NCBI RefSeq assembly: GCF_008831285.2
Contig: NC_045145.1
Coordinates: 13,202,802 to 13,266,801 of the forward strand
Direction of reading: 5' to 3'
Length of the DNA: 64,000 nt
Origin: Nymphaea colorata
Lineage: Eukaryota > Streptophyta > Magnoliopsida > Nymphaeales > Nymphaeaceae
Below, piece after piece: positions 35,501 to 64,000 of the stretch. Positions within the stretch are counted from its first letter, which is position 1; the number at the start of each line of letters is the position of its first letter. The translations under genes were made by a program, and so were the position numbers. Below the pieces are notes generated by a model that made no database searches, was not told the origin of the DNA, and worked only from the letters and a program-made list of their open reading frames with translations.

Positions 35501-38500
35501 TATGCATGGTTGGATGATTTGCCTTCAGGTTTATTTCACAATGAGAACCAACTAACTCTTTGCCTTCCATATAAAAGATGCAAAATGAGCAAGCCACTTT
35601 GAAAAGAGCCGACCCACACCAGGCTTGGGCCTATGGTCTAGCGGATCCCAACTTGCCCCCTAGCAACTTCGGCTCCAATCCTTAAAAAGATAGGAACCAA
35701 TCACTTAACAGTTCCCTTTATAAGTTTTCCAAGATTCTCCACAATTTTAGATACATGACTAAACTTTTCGGGTATTACAATCCACCCTCTTAAGGCACAC
35801 ACATCCGTGCGTGTGGGACCCCAGGTTTGAGGGTTGAACTTATCACTAATACCACTGAACCAAATGTTTGATTTGTGCATGTCATCCATGCATAGGGGCC
35901 ATGCTAATCTTCTTGTATCATTCCAATTTTAGTGGATGTCTCCAAAGAGTTTAATATTGTATCTAATAACCTAATATTGTATGGAATCTTGAGAAACTTA
36001 TAAGGGAGATTGTTAAGTGGTTGGTTGTCCTACTTCCTAATCTTTTTTAAGGCTGAAAGTGAAGTTGTTAGAGGCCGTGTTGAGATCCATCAAACCGAGA
36101 GCCTGAGTCCGGTTTGGGAGTGGGCCAAGTTATTACACTGGTATCAGAACTAGTTAAACATTTGAATTTGAGGTCCCACATGCATGGATGTGTGTGCCTT
36201 AAGGGACTAGATTGTAACACACCAAAATTTAGTCTCGTATCTAAGATTGTGAAGACTCTTGGGAGACTTATAAATGAGGTTCTTAAGTGATTGGTTATCT
36301 TGGGTTCTTAGCCTTTTTTGTGGCTGAAACCAAAGCTGCTAGGGAGTAAGTTGAGATCCGCCAAAATAGGTCGTGACACTTTTATTTAGTACATATTTTA
36401 TGAATGCAAACAATGAATTTATGTGTTTATTTGTCTAAAATATTGTTAGTTTATATACATGCATGTATGTATGTATATATGGCCATTTCACCGCATCCAA
36501 GTTTTTTAGAAATTATCTCGTGCCAATGTTCATACCAATGCCCATGTTGGCACCTGTACCCATGTGACATATTAAAATATATGCCTCGCGATATGGTTCT
36601 TTGAGGGTCAAGAAGACACCAACAGATGGTTGAAAGGGATGTCAAGTGTCAATAGATAGACTCACTTAACTCAAAAATTATCTGTTTCTTCAATTTCTGT
36701 AATGATACAGAATATTTAACTCCTATTAGGTCTGTAGCTTATACCCTTATACATTTTCTTTAGCATTCTCCCTTCTGGTGACCTATACAGTGAACCAAGA
36801 ATACGTCACCGTTAGCAGCAGATATATTGTTCTCATGGTGACTATGGTTTTAGTTTAGTCAACCCTATCAATGTTGAACAAACCACACAAGCTGTATCTC
36901 TCTCTCTCTCTCTCTCTCTTTGTGTGTGTGTGTGTGTATGTGTTTGTGGGACTCATTTCAATGGCAACAAATTGCTTCAAAATTTCTCAAAGGTAACAAA
37001 GTACAGTTGCACATTATTAATAGACATATATCCATTTCATTGAAAGGCATGTATTTTTATATAGTAAAAATATCCAAATGTTGAACCATTACCTAAGGCC
37101 TTCATGCTGAGATAGTTGTTTTCAGAAATTCATTACATGTTGGTTTTCAGGGCTTATATTATATTACACACTTAATGAATTGTGCTCATTTTCAGGATTA
37201 TGATTCAAAGGCTTGAGATCACTAAAAATGATCTTCAAAACAAAATTGCAAAGGAGGTGAACATTAAACACATGTTCTTCCTATTGGTAGCAAACTGTTG
37301 CTTCAGTTATCTTGAGTGACCAAGTTGTCTTCATCTGTAGGCAAAGGGGAATGCAATCTTGCAAGCAAGCTTGGAGAGGAGGAAGCAAGCTTTACATGAG
37401 CGTCGATTAGCACTTGAGCAAGATGTAAGTGTATGCATGCATGTGTGGGACAGAAAGGGAGGGGTGTTAGGGTTTTGCAGGGTGGGGTGTGGCAGAGGAG
37501 GGAAGGAAGTGTTTGTTACGTTATGAATAACAATTTCACCACTGCCTATTGTTCCTCTAATTTGTGTTATGTGGACACGCCAAAGAAAGTGGCTACACCT
37601 TTTTTCACACAACCAATGTATGTCACTCCACATGGCTTAAACATGTTTAAAATTATGAAGGTTGAGGAGGATGAATCATTATTCAAAATATTCCAAAGTT
37701 GTACTAAGCCTGATCAAGTCCAATTATTTTTTTCCCCATCCACTTCTTTGACTTGCTCCATTGTTACAGTTTCCAGATGTTCTTAGTTTACTCATGGCTT
37801 GTTATATACTTATATTTAGGGCTGCACAACGAGTCGAGCCAACTCGGGCTCGACTCGAACTCGCTCGAAAAAACTCGACTCGAGCTCGACTCGTTTATAA
37901 ACGAGTCGAGTTCGAGCTGAAAGTTAAACTCGAGTACGTTAATGAGTCGAGTTCGAGTTAGTCAAGCTCGACTCGATTAAACTCGACTCGACTCAATTTT
38001 AATTTTTTTTAAGTTTTCTTCTTTCTTCATTTTGTTTCCCTCTCGTTTTTTTCGTTTTTTTCCCTCTCATTTTTCTTCCCTCCTCTTCTTCTCTTTTCTC
38101 TCCCATACCTTTTCTCTTCTCCCGCCGCACACCGCATTTAATGCCAATGCCATTATCTCTCTTCCCTTTTTCTCTTTTCTCTCCCACGCCCTTTCTCCCT
38201 TCTCCCGCCGCATTTAATGCAATGCCATTATCGATGACACTGGGTGTTGTAAAACGAGCCATGGCATTTATGGCAGGTGTTGAAGGAATCGCGTGTGGAG
38301 AAAGAAATAAATGAGTCGAGCCGTTCGAGTCGAGCTCGAGCTTGGAAACAATTTATCGAGTCGAGTTCAAGTTAAAGTCATCAAGCTCGTGTCGAGCTCG
38401 AGTCGAGCTCGAGCTGACTAAATATAAGTCGAGCCGAGCTCGAGCTGGCTGAACTCGAGCTCGACTCGGCTCGTGTGCAGCCCTACTTATATTCTAGACT

Positions 38501-41000
38501 TGCTCTCATATTTTACTCGTCTTACTTTTCATTGACTTCTTTATCAATTGGCAGGACGGAAGAAGCTACTTTAGATTCTGTTACTCATAACAAATTACTA
38601 AATTAGCTATTCTTACTTTTAACACAAATGTACTTATTGACTATTCTTTTATACATAAAGGAGGGAGGTGCATTTCTTATGTACTTGTTCCATAACTTTA
38701 TTTTTTCAATGATAAAACACAAATTTGTTTTTTATAATTCATTTAATGGATACAATGTGCACAAGTTTTTTAGTTCTTGAAAAGTCATTGACCCCTAATG
38801 CATTTAAAAATGTTACAACATATTCCTATGTAAAAAATGCTTCCCTGGTGAAGCATTCTTGGTTGTAAAACCAAATAAAGGAATTGATGAACTTGTTAAT
38901 GTCTTGTCATGTAAATTTTAACTAATGAATTGAGAGATATTTTCGGATTAATTAGGTGGAAATGATAAAGTGTATCAAAGTAATTAAAGTCATTAGTTTT
39001 TCTCTTTAATCCTCAATGTTTGATGGTTCTAAGTAATAATGGTAATCACAGGTGGCTAGATTGCAAGAACAGTTGCAAAGAGAGAAGGACCTTAGGGCTA
39101 CTATAGAGGCTGGATTAAACATGCCTCCACAGAATTACTTGGCCTCTTCTAGTATGGATATTAAGGTTGGTTTTTTATCTCCACTGTTTGTTCATTTTAT
39201 AAATGACTTGCGTACTAATATTTTCTCCCTGTAGCAGATACGAGCAGAACTTGAGGAAATTGCTCTTGCTGAAGCAGATGTAGTAAACTTGAAACAGAAG
39301 GCTGCTGATCTTCATTTGCAGCTCAACCAACAGCATCGGCATATTCATAGTTCGTTCTGCAAGTCTTGTGGCCATGATTTGCATGCTCAAAAGCATGAAA
39401 TCACACAGTATGACTTGTGTTCTTCCAGCCCTGAGTTTATGTTACACATTTTTGCTTAGGTGGCTAGAATTTTTTTCCTGCTACACTCCAAGGTGCTGAA
39501 ATGAGATGGAAGTGCACGTTTTGATATCTATTACATGATATTATTTGGCATGAAGCTTTGTCCAAATTTTTGTTCTGACTTTAATTATTAGATGGATTAG
39601 AAGCATAACGATTGTGTTATTTTTTTGTATGTTGCTTGATGTCAGGAAGGTTCAGCAACAAATTTTAGGGACTGGTAATGATGTACTGCTTCACGAAGGG
39701 ACTAAAAAAAAAAATGAAGTAAAGGTATTGGCTTACTAGTGTAGCTATAGCAGGGGCCAGCTTAAAGTGGCCATCATGCCTCATTTCTGCTGAAACGCAA
39801 CTGTAAATATCTTGACTTCCTGTTTCTGGCCTTGTAAAACTTGCCTCATTTCTGCTGAAACACAACTATAAATATCTTGACTTCCTGTTTCTGGCCTTGT
39901 AAAACTGAACAAAGTCTGCCTATCTTGCGCAAAACTGTGACAATTGAAACATATGGAATCCTGAAGCATCTAGGTGATAAGATGTTGGATCTAATCTGAT
40001 CCAGATCCAACACGTCTACTGATTCAGATCCAACACGTCTTACCATGTCTGAACGCATTTATCTAGGCAGAGTTATGATTGTAATTTTTGTAATTATTTC
40101 TTTCTAGACTCTAGGTTATTGTGTTGCTTGAGTCTAGGCTCTAGGTTATTGTGATAATTGTTTTATTCTAGACTCTAGGTTATTGTGTTGATTCACTCTA
40201 GGCTCTAGATTATTGTGATTGTTTCATTCTAGATTCTTGTAAAATGTGTAGAGGGATCACTATATAAATGGGTTGTGTGAGGATGTAAAATCTCACCTCT
40301 TCCTCATTTCTCTTTTCCTTTCTCTCTCTTACCATTTCCTTGTTGGCAGCAGGATGTCTTCCTCAGTTGTGACTCCAGAGCTGTGAAAACGCAATTAATA
40401 CCTTCTGTTCAGAGCAGACAACCCCACCGGAAACAACAAGATTTGACAAGTAGATCCATGTTTAGTTCTGATTTGGTGAAGGAGCCCTTTGCAAAAAATC
40501 AAGTATGTTTCTTTCTTTGCATATTTGCATCAACCTTACGTTTAATCTATTTTCTGCAAGATTTCGGAGGATGGATTTGGTAAAATGCTTGGGAAGATAA
40601 AGTACCTGATGGTCTGCTGTGCTTGGGTCCAGCCTTTTAGCATTAAGTGCTTACTTAACATACCTTTTCTTTTTATCGGAAGCTATCTTGTTGTCTTATC
40701 CTCCATATGACCTTTTTCACCAAGTTTTTACATCTTTAGATTGCTTAATGCCTGTTGCTTTCCATATCTAGCTTTAGACGGGAGAGTGTAAAGTTTTCAA
40801 TAGTTTTAATTTTCTTTTATCTGAAACAAAAGAGTGAGCTTTAACACTGCATCCTACGGCTACTCCAGGAACAAGCTTTCATATCTTCTGTACTGGTAGA
40901 ATTGACAACTAGACTTGATTTTTTGAAGGAACGGCGATATCAGCTTTTAAATGAGCTTCACAACCTTGATGGGAAAGATGGGACAAGTTCACACAAATAG
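12451..41000 (+). CDS. REN1: ROP GTPase-activating protein with PH, RhoGAP and coiled-coil regions (REN1/PHGAP class)
   Basis: Twenty-two exons join in one frame to 833 residues: 12451-12510, 13010-13046, 14057-14133, 18673-18743, 18827-18905, 19000-19150, 20241-20360, 21438-21515, 21665-21720, 21824-21893, 27191-27275, 28962-29205, 31883-32104, 32839-33150, 34376-34425, 37196-37256, 37341-37424, 39052-39165, 39238-39407, 39646-39724, 40353-40502, 40869-41000. The PH domain is residues 21-127 (VFKSGPLFISSKG, GWTSWKKRWFILT, EWKAALENAL). RhoGAP is about 165-360, with the catalytic arginine finger predicted at Arg207 in GILRQSADVEEV. An acidic Ser/Asp/Glu linker (377-450) precedes a coiled coil of about 572-700 (ILQASLERRKQALHERR). 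The C-terminus is VELTTRLDFLKERR. Such proteins stimulate GTP hydrolysis by plant ROP GTPases at the cell cortex; REN1 limits ROP1 at the pollen-tube tip. The start is the ATG giving MFAPTAPVPF; an in-frame ATG at 12349 would be removed if the leader intron is real. REN1 versus PHGAP1/2 orthology is not settled. Confidence 0.93.
14430..14830. mobile_element. Probable truncated relative of the CTTAGTYGTCAA element
   Basis: The right end TTTTGACAACTTAG matches the terminus of the element at 3537-4335, and the block is filled with GACTAGT, CAATTGACTA and similar motifs plus an (AC)n(AT)n tract at 14598-14634. No matching left end or duplication was found. It lies in the 4.5-kb intron 14134-18672. 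Confidence 0.45.
16355..16416. repeat. (TA)n microsatellite
   Basis: About 31 TA units in the intron 14134-18672. Confidence 0.97.
16599..17047 (+). mobile_element. TRIM retrotransposon, best-preserved copy (copy 2)
   Basis: A 449-bp element: LTR 16599-16779 (TGTAACGCC to GTCACA), a primer site TGGTATCAGAGCAC at 16781 complementary to the 3' end of initiator tRNA-Met, an interior of only 76 bases, a purine tract TTAAGGGAGTGAAC, then LTR 16856-17047 (TGTAACACATC to GTTACA). Flanks TTAGA and TTAGT match at 4 of 5 bases. With no gag or pol it fits the TRIM class. The LTR shows no 5S rRNA-like block, so it is not Cassandra. Confidence 0.85.
18155..18330. repeat. GACTAGTC-rich block
   Basis: Dense ACTAGTC, GACTAGT and TAGTCGACTA words, like the subterminal zone of the element at 3537-4335. 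No ends were found. Probably an element fragment. Confidence 0.35.
18906..18999 (+). other. GC-AG intron in the PH-domain part of the RhoGAP gene
   Basis: The exon ends ...TTTACACTCAAG|GCATGT at 18905 and the next begins GCAGAGACATCT at 19000, giving FTLK-AETSED as in the family. A GT lies 4 bases further on (18910) but using it would shift the frame. The intron is only 94 bp. Confidence 0.7.
23064..23432. mobile_element. hAT-type MITE, CTATGTCAC family
   Basis: A 369-bp element with ends CTAAGTGACATGGGTAC and inverted CTAAGTGACATGGGCAC. Flanks CACAGATG and CATGGATG match at 6 of 8 bases, both changes being transitions. The interior is clearly related to the copy at 47964-48324 (shared AACAATAACTCTAAAAACAG and following text). 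It lies in the 5.3-kb intron 21894-27190. Confidence 0.75.
23802..23844. repeat. (TA)n microsatellite
   Basis: About 21 TA units in the intron 21894-27190. Confidence 0.97.
24102..24433. mobile_element. hAT-type MITE, diverged CTATGTCAC family member
   Basis: A 332-bp element starting CTTTTGTCACATGGG and ending, inverted, TATGAAACATGGGTG. Flanks AGTTCTTA (24094-24101) and AGTTCTTG (24434-24441) match at 7 of 8 bases. Subterminal GGTAC and GGGTACGG words are present on both sides. Confidence 0.65.
24469..24765 (+). mobile_element. TRIM-type element, copy 3 (truncated)
   Basis: A diverged first LTR (about 24469-24666), a primer-site-like TGGTATTAGAGCC at 24668, the short interior with GCCTTAGAGGAGTGGATTG, and only the first 20 bases of the second LTR. 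Confidence 0.7.
26024..26345 (+). mobile_element. TRIM-type element, copy 4 (truncated)
   Basis: The end of a first LTR, the family interior (GATTCAACACTC, GACGTGTGC, GGTGGATTGTAACG) and most of a second LTR from about 26168. The second LTR stops short and runs into the duplicated block at 26338. Confidence 0.7.
26338..26500 (+). repeat. Direct duplication of about 160 bp, copy A
   Basis: Nearly identical to 26711-26870. Shared text includes CCAATTCCTACATGAGGATG and GCAGAAACCATGTACCGTAAA. The two copies differ at roughly one base in ten. Confidence 0.9.
26711..26870 (+). repeat. Direct duplication of about 160 bp, copy B
   Basis: Second copy of 26338-26500, same orientation, 373 bp downstream, in the same intron. 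Confidence 0.9.
27686..28370. mobile_element. hAT-type element, CAATGTTATA termini, GTATCG/CGTAGC arrays
   Basis: A 685-bp element with ends CAATGTTATAAAAGGCG and inverted CAATGTTATCCGTATCG. It has a perfect 8-bp duplication AGCTTGAG at 27678-27685 and 28371-28378. Subterminal zones are packed with CGTATCG, GTAGCGTATC and palindromic GTATCGTACGATAC words. The core is AT-rich with no transposase. It lies in the intron 27276-28961. Confidence 0.9.
30333..31434. mobile_element. hAT-type element, CTATGTCAC family, with gene-like GC-rich core
   Basis: An 1,102-bp element with ends CTATGTCACACGGGTACGGG and inverted CTATGTAACACGGGTACGTC. It has a perfect 8-bp duplication CTTAAATG at 30325-30332 and 31435-31442. 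Inside are (TA)n at 30413-30474, five copies of a 20-bp unit at about 30545-30648, and a GC-rich stretch (about 30890-31240) with GCCGCTGCCGAAG and GTCGTCG runs unlike the AT-rich surroundings. It lies in the RhoGAP intron 29206-31882. Confidence 0.88.
30545..30648 (+). repeat. Tandem 20-bp repeat, five units
   Basis: The unit is AAACACATAAATCATGGTCC with single-base variants (C, G or T near the end). It lies inside the element at 30333-31434 and produces the repeated KTHKSWS reading frame. Confidence 0.95.
32482..32525. repeat. (TA)n microsatellite
   Basis: About 22 TA units in the intron 32105-32838. Confidence 0.97.
33350..33500 (+). repeat. GATGCATGTGCACGC-type short repeats
   Basis: Three near-identical units of about 26 bp built on GCCGAGTGATGCATGTGCAC, followed by scattered GATGCG/CGCATC palindromic words to 33500. 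This resembles the subterminal zone of a hAT-type element, but no matching right end was found. It lies in the intron 33151-34375. Confidence 0.6.
35606..35860 (-). mobile_element. TRIM-type element, copy 5 (one LTR plus interior)
   Basis: Read on the minus strand: TGGTATTAGTG primer-site-like sequence, interior, the purine tract CCTTAAGAGGGTGG, then one LTR with the family text. The other LTR is missing. It faces copy 6 head-on, 90 bp away. Confidence 0.7.
35950..36378 (+). mobile_element. TRIM-type element, copy 6
   Basis: A first LTR with a damaged start ends at about 36137 (TTATTACA), then CTGGTATCAGAAC, the interior, TTAAGGGACTAGATTG, and a second LTR 36213-36378 with an internal deletion before its GTGACA end. 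Confidence 0.75.
36385..36575. mobile_element. Possible one-ended fragment of the CTATGTCAC family
   Basis: Ends with GGCACCTGTACCCATGTGAC, the family's right terminus, after a short (TA)-rich core and AAGTTTTTTAGAAATT as seen near other copies. The left end overlaps the TRIM end and is unclear. Confidence 0.4.
37817..38485. mobile_element. hAT-type non-autonomous element, TAGGGCTGCAC termini
   Basis: A 669-bp element in the intron 37425-39051. Perfect 11-bp inverted ends TAGGGCTGCAC/GTGCAGCCCTA and a perfect 8-bp duplication CTTATATT at 37809-37816 and 38486-38493. Both subterminal zones are arrays of GAGCTCGAG, GAGTCGAG and CTCGACTCG words. The core is pyrimidine-rich. No ORF for a transposase. 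Confidence 0.93.
39777..39906 (+). repeat. Tandem duplication of a 65-bp unit
   Basis: Units 39777-39841 and 39842-39906 (start TGCCTCATTTCTGCTGAAAC) differ at two positions. They lie in the RhoGAP intron 39725-40352. Confidence 0.95.
40103..40240 (+). repeat. Imperfect tandem repeat, CTCTAGGTTATTGTG unit
   Basis: Four to five units of about 30-37 bp built on TCTAGACTCTAGGTTATTGT, in the same intron as the 65-bp duplication, upstream of exon 40353-40502. Confidence 0.85.
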
Positions 41001-59069: not shown

Positions 59070-60386
59070 TCAACCCCACCATTGATGGACAGCAACTCCT
59101 TCCTCCCTAAGCATCCCATAGAGGGCCAGACACTCCCAATAGGCCATGCTTCTGCTCCCCCTCCGGTTCCCATTCCCCTCGTCCTCGTGGTCGCAAACCA
59201 GGAAGAGCTCGTCTATCAGGCACACTGCCTTGCTCCTCACCATCTCCCTCACCACCTCGAACTCGCCACCGCCACCCCAGCGGTCTCCCTTTCCCACCTC
59301 CATCTTCACCACAACATACTCTTCTTCCCGGATGTTGCGCTTCAGCCAATTCGAGAAACTCGTGGCCACCATCCCAGTTGCTCCGCCTTTTCTAGCCCAT
59401 GTCACTGCCGGCTCGTACCTGCCCCCATCGAAGTCGCCCTCCAGCACGTAGATGTCGAAATCCCGGCCTCTTGCTGGATAGTTCTCCATGAACCACTCTC
59501 CGACGCCATCCGCGCGACGGCTGACCTCCACGTACACGTGCCGAGCAAAGGATGCGAGGTCCTCCCCCATAAGATCGGGAAGATACTTCACTCGTTTCAG
59601 ATAGCCTCGTGAATCCACCCACGATTCCCTGGGCGGCTCCAAAAGGACGTCTTCCAGATCTCGGATCGCCCTCCGTTTCGCGTCCGACGTGGGGCATAGG
59701 CCATTACCGGACTCGGCCATCCCTGCTTCTCGGCCACCGTCGCCCCCTTCGTTCATTTTACGAATCGCGATTACCGTGTTGGACGTGGGGGCGTGGAAGT
59801 GGCGGAGGTACACGATCTTGAAGTTTGGCGGCACGCTGACCGAATCAGTGGCAGATGAGAAGCGGAGGGCAGCGACACCCCCCACCCGGAGAACGGGTCC
59901 GATCAGCAGCACCGAATTGAAGCCGTTAGCGGTGAAGGCGAAGTCGACGGTACCGTCAACGATGAAGCCGCGGCCCTTTCCGTTCACGTCGACGAATTCA
60001 AGGGGCGGAACGGCGCCACCATCGATGAACATGCGGATCTCGGCTGCCTCCGAAGACCCGCCGATGAAGACCGCCTTTTCGCCCACCTTGAATAGCCCCT
60101 GGTCGAGGAGGTCCTGAAATACGGCCGGAATTAGCTGCTCCGGAGAGGCTTTTTCGGTGGCGACAGCGGCTACGCCGGAGTTCTGTCCGGAGGGGAAGAT
60201 AGCGGGGACAGTGCGAAGATATTGGAAATGGCCAAGCCAAGGCAGCGCGAGCATAGCGAAAGTCAAAAAGAGGGATCTGGCAAAGAGCCTCAGAACTCTG
60301 AAATCAGGAAAGATGATGACGAGTTGATTATCGCAGGAGTTCGCTCGACCTGTGGTCTTCCGAAAGACAGCACTGTTTCCATCCAT
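59070..60386 (-). CDS. DUF7870 / methyltransferase-like membrane-anchored protein
   Basis: A single intronless ORF of 438 residues on the minus strand (ATG at 60386, TGA at 59070-59072), GC-rich. The open frame extends 48 bases upstream but begins there with GTG, so the first ATG (MDGNSAVFRKTTG) is taken as the start. A hydrophobic segment at about residues 31-51 (LFARSLFLTFAMLALPWL) looks like a signal anchor. The C-terminal half carries conserved blocks: WVDSRGYLKRVKYLPDLMG, WFMENYPARGRDFDIYVLEG, ATSFSNWLKRNIREEEYVVV, and the terminal YWECLALYGMLREEGVAVHQ ending WWG. I recognise the plant family of Arabidopsis At3g53400/At5g03190, often labelled S-adenosylmethionine-dependent methyltransferase-like. 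No clear SAM-binding glycine motif is evident, so enzyme activity is unproven. It is preceded by a 40-codon uORF at 60536-60658 that probably controls its translation. Confidence 0.9.
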   Translation of the reverse strand: MDGNSAVFRKTTGRANSCDNQLVIIFPDFRVLRLFARSLFLTFAMLALPWLGHFQYLRTVPAIFPSGQNSGVAAVATEKASPEQLIPAVFQDLLDQGLFKVGEKAVFIGGSSEAAEIRMFIDGGAVPPLEFVDVNGKGRGFIVDGTVDFAFTANGFNSVLLIGPVLRVGGVAALRFSSATDSVSVPPNFKIVYLRHFHAPTSNTVIAIRKMNEGGDGGREAGMAESGNGLCPTSDAKRRAIRDLEDVLLEPPRESWVDSRGYLKRVKYLPDLMGEDLASFARHVYVEVSRRADGVGEWFMENYPARGRDFDIYVLEGDFDGGRYEPAVTWARKGGATGMVATSFSNWLKRNIREEEYVVVKMEVGKGDRWGGGGEFEVVREMVRSKAVCLIDELFLVCDHEDEGNGNRRGSRSMAYWECLALYGMLREEGVAVHQWWG

Positions 60387-60535
60387 GGCCGATCGACTAA
60401 GGGAGCGACGGCAGCAGAAGCTCGTAAAACCCACTTCTCGAGGATCTCGCGGTCAAACGATCGGAGAAGGAGATCGGAGGGAAACACTGAAAAAGTTGCG
60501 GGGATAAGGCCAGGAAAACAAGAGGAGAGGACGGA

Positions 60536-60658
60536 TTAGCGAGTGCAGAAGCGGGCGGCAGTGTGATTCCCACCCACAAGTGCCACACGGGTCGACATTG
60601 TTCGGAGGTAGAGGAGCATCAGTTGCTTCATCCGCAGCGCCTCCATGGTGAAAACCAT
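60536..60658 (-). CDS. Upstream ORF, probable conserved-peptide uORF of the DUF7870 gene
   Basis: A 40-codon ORF on the minus strand, ATG at 60658, TAA at 60536-60538, 149 bases before the main ATG and closed before it. A second in-frame ATG at 60646 begins MEALRMKQLMLLYLRTMSTR; the peptide ends GGNHTAARFCTR. The main-gene family (At3g53400, At5g03190) is among those I recall as carrying conserved peptide uORFs in Arabidopsis, with a similar MEALxxKQ...LYLRTMSTR core. Such peptides repress main-ORF translation, often by stalling ribosomes in response to a metabolite. Both the family match and the function rest on memory; the ORF itself is certain. Confidence 0.72.
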   Translation of the reverse strand: MVFTMEALRMKQLMLLYLRTMSTRVALVGGNHTAARFCTR

Positions 60659-60900
60659 GCACTCGCCTCTCTCTCCCTCTTTCTTGCTCTTTCAGCTCAG
60701 ACACCGCCCATCAAAATCTTCGTCTCCTCTTCTTCCCTCTCCTGAAAAGATGTTCTGGAGCCGAAGGAGGAGGAAGGAGAGAAGGAGGCAAGGCGAGAGA
60801 GTTAACCACAGCCCCTCCGGCCCTCTTTTTATCTATTTGCTTCCTACCTATATGAAATATGTACAGACGCGTTTGTTTCGTGGACGAGTGAAGTCGACAA
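60659..60900 (-). promoter_or_regulatory. Leader and core promoter of the DUF7870 gene
   Basis: Read on the minus strand: a TATA-like AGATAAAAAGAGG (about 60823-60835), then a pyrimidine-rich stretch (CTTCTCTCCTTCCTCCTCC, near 60756-60790) of the kind common at plant transcription starts, then a purine-rich leader with the uORFs. Confidence 0.4.
60697..60711 (-). CDS. Minimal upstream ORF (four codons)
   Basis: ATG-GGC-GGT-GTC-TGA in the leader, 39 bases before the 40-codon uORF. It may reduce or time initiation at the longer uORF. Short and possibly incidental. Confidence 0.3.
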   Translation of the reverse strand: MGGV

Positions 60901-62275: not shown

Positions 62276-64000
62276 TAAAGAGAGAGAGAGAGAGAAACTG
62301 TTAGGCACGTCACCGGTTGGGCTAGAAAGTCCGAACCAAGTACGTCCTAAGTTCCCAAGACCTTCTTGATGGTTAGTCTAAAAACCGAAAATCCTATACA
62401 AATTATTACAAGAGAGCTACCCGGCCGGACAACCCCCGGCGCAAAATCCCATAGGACAGGAATACAAGTGCGGGTTACCCTTTCTAGAGCCTACCTACGG
62501 TTAATCCTACTACAACCAACTAATAAGGACCAAGGCTGTACAAGGCGCGAGCGATACAAGGTATTGAAACACTCTCAACTCACTCACAAACCAAGCACAC
62601 CACGCTATCGATCAAACCACGCCCAACCAAAGCAAATGGGTGGTCGGCTCCTTGTGATCGTGTCTCGGACAATAGGGCCCTCGAGGTACCACAGTGAGGA
62701 GCTAGGCCGAAGCCTGGGGCTAAAACAATAAAAGAAGTAAACTAGATGCGACCTAGAACTGAAAGCAAAGAACACCCTCCCCGAATTTACAGGGGGACAA
62801 AAGGAGGTTACCGGCCAAAGGAGTGCCTTGGCTGCACCGGATAGGGCCACGGGGTGAAGACCGATCCCCGGGCAATGCAGCTACGGATCAAGAATTCCGC
62901 TTGAGGAGAGCCTCCACGGAGATCGCTGTACGGACGGACGGGCCGGTGGGAACGGGCAGCCTGGACAGTCGCCTGCTGTCGGGTGGAAGGGTCGGCGAGA
63001 AGCGCACGACTTGGGCAGCCCCCTGCTGCCGGGCGTCGAGAGGAAGGGGGTGACCGCCTGTCGCCGATAGCGCGGGCTGGACGCCGCGGTAGTGCCGAGG
63101 GGGGCGAGTGCCGAGTAGCGGCAGCGCCTACCTGCCTTGCTCCGGAAGTGGCTCGACCACGGATGTCGGCAGAGGAGGGCCGACGGCGACGGAGATGGCC
63201 GAGGTGCTCGCGCTAGCCGACATCGTCTGTGCCTGGTCCCTAGCTAAGGTCGGGTTGGCTTGGACTGGCAGGGCTCTATGGGTAGGCCGGTCAGGTCACG
63301 TTGAGCTGAGGGCTAGGGTAGGCCGAGGGGTCTTGTAGCTTAGGTGCGGAAGTGGGGAGCCTAACTAATAGGTGGGCTTAGTCGGGTGGCTTATGAGGTT
63401 GCACCTAGGCTCGGGTCAAAGGGGCCTCCGTTGACCGAATGGAGGTAGAGGTTAGACTAAGTAGATGGCTACCACTGGACCAAGTTGAGTGGGTTCGGGT
63501 GAGCTAGGTTAAGTGAATCACTCGAGGTAGGCTCGAGTCAACTAGGCTAGGGTGAGAAGGGCTCGGGTTTGACCAAATGCCTATTGAGCTAAGAGAGGTT
63601 AAGTCAAGGCGGCTTAGGTCAAGGCCGAAATAAGGGGTTGACTAAGGAAGAGGTCAGCGTCGAGGGTGCCTAGCTGGGTTAGGGTGAGACTTGGCTGGTT
63701 GAGCCAAGGGAGAGATTCTTGCCACATGGCAAGATCTACGGACAAGACAGAGCACGCTAGAAAAATCCCTAGCGATAAGGAGAAGAGGTCAACTTTCCTA
63801 AAGCTAAGGAGAGTGGGCCGGTGAGGAGTTTGCGAGAGAGGGGAACGTGGTGACTAGTGGATCTCGTTATTTACTCTCAAGAGGGGAGATGAGGACACGT
63901 GTGAGGATCAAGGGCTAGGAAGAGCTGCGGTTAAATGAGGTGAGGGTGAGGTAGCCAAGGAGTAGGCGAGACTTGAGGGACGTGAGCTAAAAGGTAGGAG
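62276..64000. other. GC-rich block of unknown nature, possibly LTR of a large retrotransposon
   Basis: After a (GA)n tract (62281-62296) the sequence turns GC-rich and, from about 62930, strongly G-rich on the plus strand, with repeated GGGCTCGGGT, GGTTAAGT and GGCTAGG-type words. ORFs of 70-120 codons overlap in several frames, as expected from composition, and none resembles a known protein. A TGTTAGGCACG start just after the purine tract would fit an LTR, but the end lies outside the window. Confidence 0.3.

Follow-up and report, generated by a model that had tools for sequence, protein, structure and literature searches.

The leader of a DUF7870 gene in the water lily Nymphaea colorata carries an upstream open reading frame (uORF) whose peptide is under purifying selection and recurs, with the same C-terminal end and stop, in the leaders of two paralogs. 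We consider this uORF, with a probability of about 0.9, to be a conserved-peptide uORF of the HG17 type. This assignment is based on the gene family, the length of the uORF, its class I pattern, its fixed stop, and the selection acting on it, and not on a match of residues. The gene lies in a stretch of 64,000 nucleotides that was analysed as a whole, hereafter the window (contig C8, positions 13202802-13266801). HG17 is already known, and the identification of the window copy as an additional member in an early-diverging angiosperm is well supported.

Leader layout and main gene

With regard to the layout of the leader, the original prediction of an ATG-initiated uORF of 40 codons was exact in its coordinates and in its distance from the main ATG, and the four-codon uORF that was placed ahead of it is present as well (Table 1). 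The 40-codon uORF contains a second in-frame ATG at 60646, which gives 36 codons. This second ATG aligns with the start of both paralog uORFs, and its context (accATGg) is better than that of the first ATG at 60658 (tgcATGg) and that of the four-codon uORF (ttgATGg). Because of this alignment and this better context, we infer that translation of the uORF usually begins at 60646; ribosomes would mostly bypass the four-codon uORF. The latter has no evident counterpart among the ORFs of at least 4 aa in the C10 leader and of at least 2 aa in the C5 leader, and is probably incidental.

Table 1. Features of the window gene and uORFs of its two paralogs. Positions without a prefix refer to the window.
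Feature	Position	Strand	Description
Conserved-peptide uORF	60658..60536	-	40 codons + TAA; peptide MVFTMEALRMKQLMLLYLRTMSTRVALVGGNHTAARFCTR-stop
Conserved C-terminal tail of the uORF	60536..60580	-	14 codons + stop, LVGGNHTAARFCTR-stop; putative segment of ribosome arrest by the nascent peptide
Four-codon uORF	60711..60697	-	MGGV-stop; weak start context
Spacer, uORF stop to main ATG	60387..60535	-	149 bases
Main ORF, DUF7870 gene	60386..59070	-	438 aa; single open frame in DNA
uORF of the C5 paralog	L006:570-683		37 codons, MEVFCLQTLLWNRVASAAHLPSSLIGANHTAARFCSR-stop; 217 bases before main ATG
uORF of the C10 paralog	L005	reverse	37 codons, MDPFSLAVVLWNRIASPSLLPPSLVGANHTSARFCSR-stop; 172 bases before main ATG

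The length of the uORF is ordinary, since 31.6% of 4000 leaders obtained by dinucleotide shuffling of the 325-base original contain an ATG-initiated ORF of at least 40 aa, and length was dropped as evidence for this reason. The composition of the peptide had been described as non-random, with a core rich in Met and Leu and a basic end. In tests that were picked after the sequence was seen, the Met fraction (5/40; P 0.0008) and the Met plus Leu content (P 0.016) proved to be rare among 3653 shuffled ORFs of at least 30 aa, and this part of the description holds. In contrast, the Lys plus Arg content is ordinary on the same scale (P 0.30), which led us to drop the basic content as evidence.

The main protein of the window matches DUF7870 (PF25276) over residues 242-437 with an E-value of 1.7e-56, and exhibits no FkbM or Methyltransf_11 match in Pfam at E up to 1. 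Both paralog proteins match DUF7870 above the cut-off, and each of them matches FkbM and Methyltransf_11, one above and one below the cut-off (FkbM, E 0.0035, below, and 2.1e-5, above; Methyltransf_11, E 1.3e-6, above, and 0.0026, below). The window protein is 86-88 residues shorter than its paralogs, and a portion of its methyltransferase region may have been lost. When the main proteins were compared with solved structures, nothing close was observed beyond weak matches to SAM-dependent methyltransferases, with four different sequences at E-values of at most 0.1, the best at E 1.4e-6 over profile positions 164-223. A literature search for DUF7870 returned no paper.

Elsewhere in the window, a match to the full Rfam model of U6 spliceosomal RNA is observed at 35851..35951 (-) with 60.5 bits, and a degenerate tandem array with periods of 30 and 64 is present at 40084..40252, around TCATTCTAGACTCTAGGTTA. 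The last kilobase, 63001..64000, has a GC content of 0.58 and the highest GC skew (+0.33) of the 64 one-kilobase bins.

Conservation of the uORF peptide among paralogs

The N. colorata genome (407,766,735 bases in 783 contigs) was searched by protein and by Pfam, and at least three DUF7870 genes were found among the best candidates scored, namely the window gene and one gene each on C5 and C10. As regards the identity of the genome, one marker was examined: the 22-base forward primer of Ny-2.1, assigned to chromosome 2 of N. colorata in PMC9601493, matches exactly once, on C2, and its reversed control does not match. The reverse primer is located at this locus too, and the resulting amplicon of 189 bases includes a 13-base run of T or A, in line with the (T)13 motif of the marker. 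All three exhibit a leader uORF of 37-40 codons with a common tail, L[VI]G[GA]NHT[AS]ARFC[ST]R-stop. The suggestion that DUF7870 genes keep this uORF at the peptide level is thus supported by the three genes found in the genome. When used as query in the genome search, the window uORF matched itself only, and the C5 uORF retrieved all three copies, the window copy with an E-value of 0.66, which is weak alone. With these two queries, no uORF copy was found away from DUF7870 genes. Relatives were also sought in viral contigs and in a collection of genome contigs, where none of the 79 and 117 pattern stretches, respectively, was confirmed, as is expected for a plant family.

The C5 and C10 genes may constitute a whole-genome-duplication pair. 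Their main ORFs differ by a Ks of 1.24 according to Nei-Gojobori, a simpler method than that of the published N. colorata paralogue peak, which is near Ks 0.9 (PMC7015852). The DNA of both also contains other ATG-initiated ORFs upstream, and in each case one of them overlaps the uORF in a different frame (for C5, L006 331-705; for C10, L005 542-784 on the reverse strand). These ORFs may belong to the transcripts and are a point against a tidy picture.

When the peptides are anchored at their stops, 11 of the last 14 residues are identical between the window uORF and each paralog uORF. The best tail match reached by shuffled leaders, in 5000 shuffles each, is 5 residues for C5 and 6 for C10, and among the 906 ORFs in the window with 14 aa or more, the next-best tail matches at 4 residues. 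The C-terminal match to both paralog leaders far exceeds chance. As the window main protein shares 31% and 29% identity with the other two, conservation of the 14-residue tail greatly exceeds that of the protein encoded behind it. The N-terminal halves are divergent, that of the window uORF being rich in Met and Leu with two in-frame starts, whereas those of both paralogs contain Trp. The Met/Leu-rich stretch that the original prediction had quoted as the core lies in this divergent half. It is the last 14 codons that are conserved, and they presumably form the functional part.

Most nucleotide differences in the last 45 bases fall on third codon positions. At codon positions 1/2/3, the differences amount to 2/1/11 between the window and C5, 2/1/12 between the window and C10, and 2/0/6 between C5 and C10. 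The corresponding third-position shares, 11/14, 12/15, and 6/8, have binomial chances of 0.0007, 0.0003, and 0.02, respectively, although each sequence enters two of the three pairwise comparisons, which are thus not independent. Between C5 and C10, the whole uORF exhibits an omega of 0.39 (Ka 0.24, Ks 0.61; Nei-Gojobori). By the same method, omega is 0.11 in the tail, 0.60 in the remainder, and 0.13 in the main ORF; shifting the uORF alignment into the two alternative frames gives 0.78 and 1.96. With counts rounded, Fisher tests yielded P-values of 0.031 for the uORF, 0.014 for the tail, and 0.20, which is not significant, for the remainder.

Omega is undefined for comparisons with the window copy, because the synonymous sites are saturated. 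In these pairs, the tail has a proportion of nonsynonymous differences of 0.10-0.12, compared with 0.51-0.54 for the remainder. Synonymous differences are in strong excess over nonsynonymous ones in the tail (P 3e-5 and 4e-8), and in weaker excess in the remainder (P 0.014 and 0.024). A blastn comparison of the 700-base leaders of C5 and C10 gave one strong alignment, of 85 bases (E 7e-20), located inside the uORF. Matches of the window leader to the others are all short and no stronger than E 0.001; one of them, with C5 (E 0.059), overlaps the uORF tail in part. These comparisons indicate stronger conservation of the peptide than of the DNA. The uORF peptide is under purifying selection.

Alternative explanations and proposed mode of action

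Several explanations other than a regulatory peptide were considered. Such lengths being common in shuffled leaders, the uORF could be a chance ORF, or the conservation could be that of a DNA or RNA element without a coding role. However, the differences concentrate at third codon positions, the low omega between C5 and C10 is specific to the reading frame, and the tail match beats every shuffle, and this explanation appears hardly conceivable. A uORF could also act passively, its translation costing reinitiation at the main ORF regardless of the peptide. The good start context at 60646 and the unremarkable length of the ORF are compatible with such a role, but neither the conservation of the tail as a peptide in three copies, with changes at third positions, nor the weaker repression of published CPuORF47 tail mutants in vitro (PMC9305500) would be expected, and we regard a purely passive uORF as highly improbable.

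The uORF could finally be an alternative N-terminus, spliced onto the main ORF in the major transcript, in which case its conservation would reflect that of a protein terminus. An EST of At5g03190 indeed fuses the uORF and the main ORF, with the last four uORF residues dropped (PMC2075485), and Jorgensen and Dorantes-Acosta moved HG17 to the alternative-N-terminus family aNT25 because of this EST (PMC3426882). Among the N. colorata copies, C5 exhibits a GT whose first base is the final base of the Arg codon that immediately precedes the last four codons. In contrast, no GT is present in the last 36 bases of the window and C10 uORFs, and the published donor position, as observed in At5g03190, is thus absent in two of the three copies. 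Furthermore, all three copies retain the stop and the residues past the donor point, with one S/T difference, whereas a spliced-out segment needs neither. PMC9305500 also argues against an alternative N-terminus for HG17. Fusion splicing was rejected as the main explanation on the donor position, which is the splicing feature that was surveyed, and it seems very unlikely. Some copies may undergo fusion, but this does not account for the conservation.

We retain an HG17-type uORF that would act through its peptide, for which the following mode of action can be proposed. Scanning ribosomes would initiate mostly at the second ATG (60646) and make the 36-codon peptide. With its C-terminal LVGGNHTAARFCTR remaining inside the exit tunnel as the stop codon reaches the A site, this peptide would stall termination. 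The stalled ribosome would block those that follow, which would result in less DUF7870 (methyltransferase-like) protein, and the stall may also make the mRNA vulnerable to decay. The block would be lifted by a stress signal, which is drought or heat in the case of the Arabidopsis relatives. Arrest at the stop codon is probably the working step in the window copy. Repression, signs of stalling at the stop, and a stress response are known from published relatives, and by analogy the window gene would behave in the same way.

Comparison with HG17 and other arrest peptides

The main genes of HG17 are methyltransferase-like (DUF7870 / FkbM-type 11), as are the window gene, which falls in this family through its DUF7870 domain, and its paralogs; the Arabidopsis HG17 proteins we take to be DUF7870 proteins. 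HG17 also has a rice member, OsCPuORF38. The original statement that this gene family has conserved peptide uORFs was correct, HG17 having been published with the same architecture and, for an Arabidopsis member, an experimentally observed peptide-dependent repression (PMC9305500). The group comprises At1g58120, At3g53400, At5g03190, and At5g01710 (PMC2075485, Hayden and Jorgensen 2007), the last of which is described as a methyltransferase of type 11/FkbM (PMC3426882), and corresponds to CPuORF45-48 in Arabidopsis, with 14 conserved C-terminal residues (PMC9305500, Causier and colleagues 2022).

The uORFs of HG17 are 36-45 aa long with a conserved C-terminus (PMC2075485 Table 6), and the N. 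colorata copies, with 40 residues in the window (36 from the second ATG) and 37 in both paralogs, are within this range. They share the class I pattern of HG17, namely about 14 conserved C-terminal residues, a fixed stop, and a divergent N-terminal half. Purifying selection, with a Ka/Ks of 0.28 and 0.24 by two methods in HG17 (PMC2075485 Table 5), is also observed between C5 and C10. The last four residues, which are reported to be perfectly conserved across monocots and dicots in HG17, are FCTR in the window and FCSR in both paralogs, three of the four being invariant. The window uORF differs from HG17 by its extra upstream in-frame ATG and its Met/Leu-rich N-terminal half. A text search of the literature with the tail peptide gave nothing on uORFs among the matches listed, and no paper on conserved-peptide uORFs of Nymphaea was found, as judged from titles and the starts of abstracts.

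With regard to function, PMC9305500 reports that loss of the HG17 start codon results in higher reporter activity, and that mutations in the tail of CPuORF47 weaken repression in vitro, with the same trend, which is not significant, in planta. PARE peaks are reported there at -16/-46 for CPuORF46 and CPuORF47. According to the same paper, mannitol raises the reporter about 10-fold with CPuORF47 and about 1.7-fold with CPuORF46, heat raises it about 8.85-fold with CPuORF46 and not with CPuORF47, and OsCPuORF38 placed in Arabidopsis responds to neither mannitol nor heat (PMC9305500). Different sensors were suggested there for CPuORF46 and CPuORF47 (PMC9305500). The three N. colorata copies could likewise form a set of related switches that share one brake but respond through different sensors, the window copy answering a signal that is still undescribed and being tuned by the choice between the starts at 60658 and 60646, but this extension is doubtful.

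The window copy leaves knowledge of the mechanism unchanged. It places an HG17-type peptide switch in a lineage branching near the base of the flowering plants, with the switch on all three family genes found in the N. colorata genome. This placement agrees with the fern sequences that carry HG17 uORFs, from which HG17 is reported to be older than the angiosperms (PMC9305500). The conservation across flowering plants that the original prediction suggested is based on the published papers. Comparison of the three diverged copies also reduces the conserved tail to GxNHTxARFCxR-stop, a useful guide for studying nascent-peptide arrest by mutation.

The proposed working is similar to that of the AdoMetDC1 and bZIP11 uORFs, in which an interaction between the nascent peptide and the exit tunnel arrests the ribosome. 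In the case of bZIP11, this arrest occurs at the stop codon. The peptides of uORFs of this type are not known to be related to those of HG17, and we know of no metabolite effector for HG17. In contrast, metabolite effectors are known for the AdoMetDC1/bZIP11 type, whose main genes are unrelated to those of HG17, and arrest by the AdoMetDC1 uORF is the subject of a title cited in PMC11062462.
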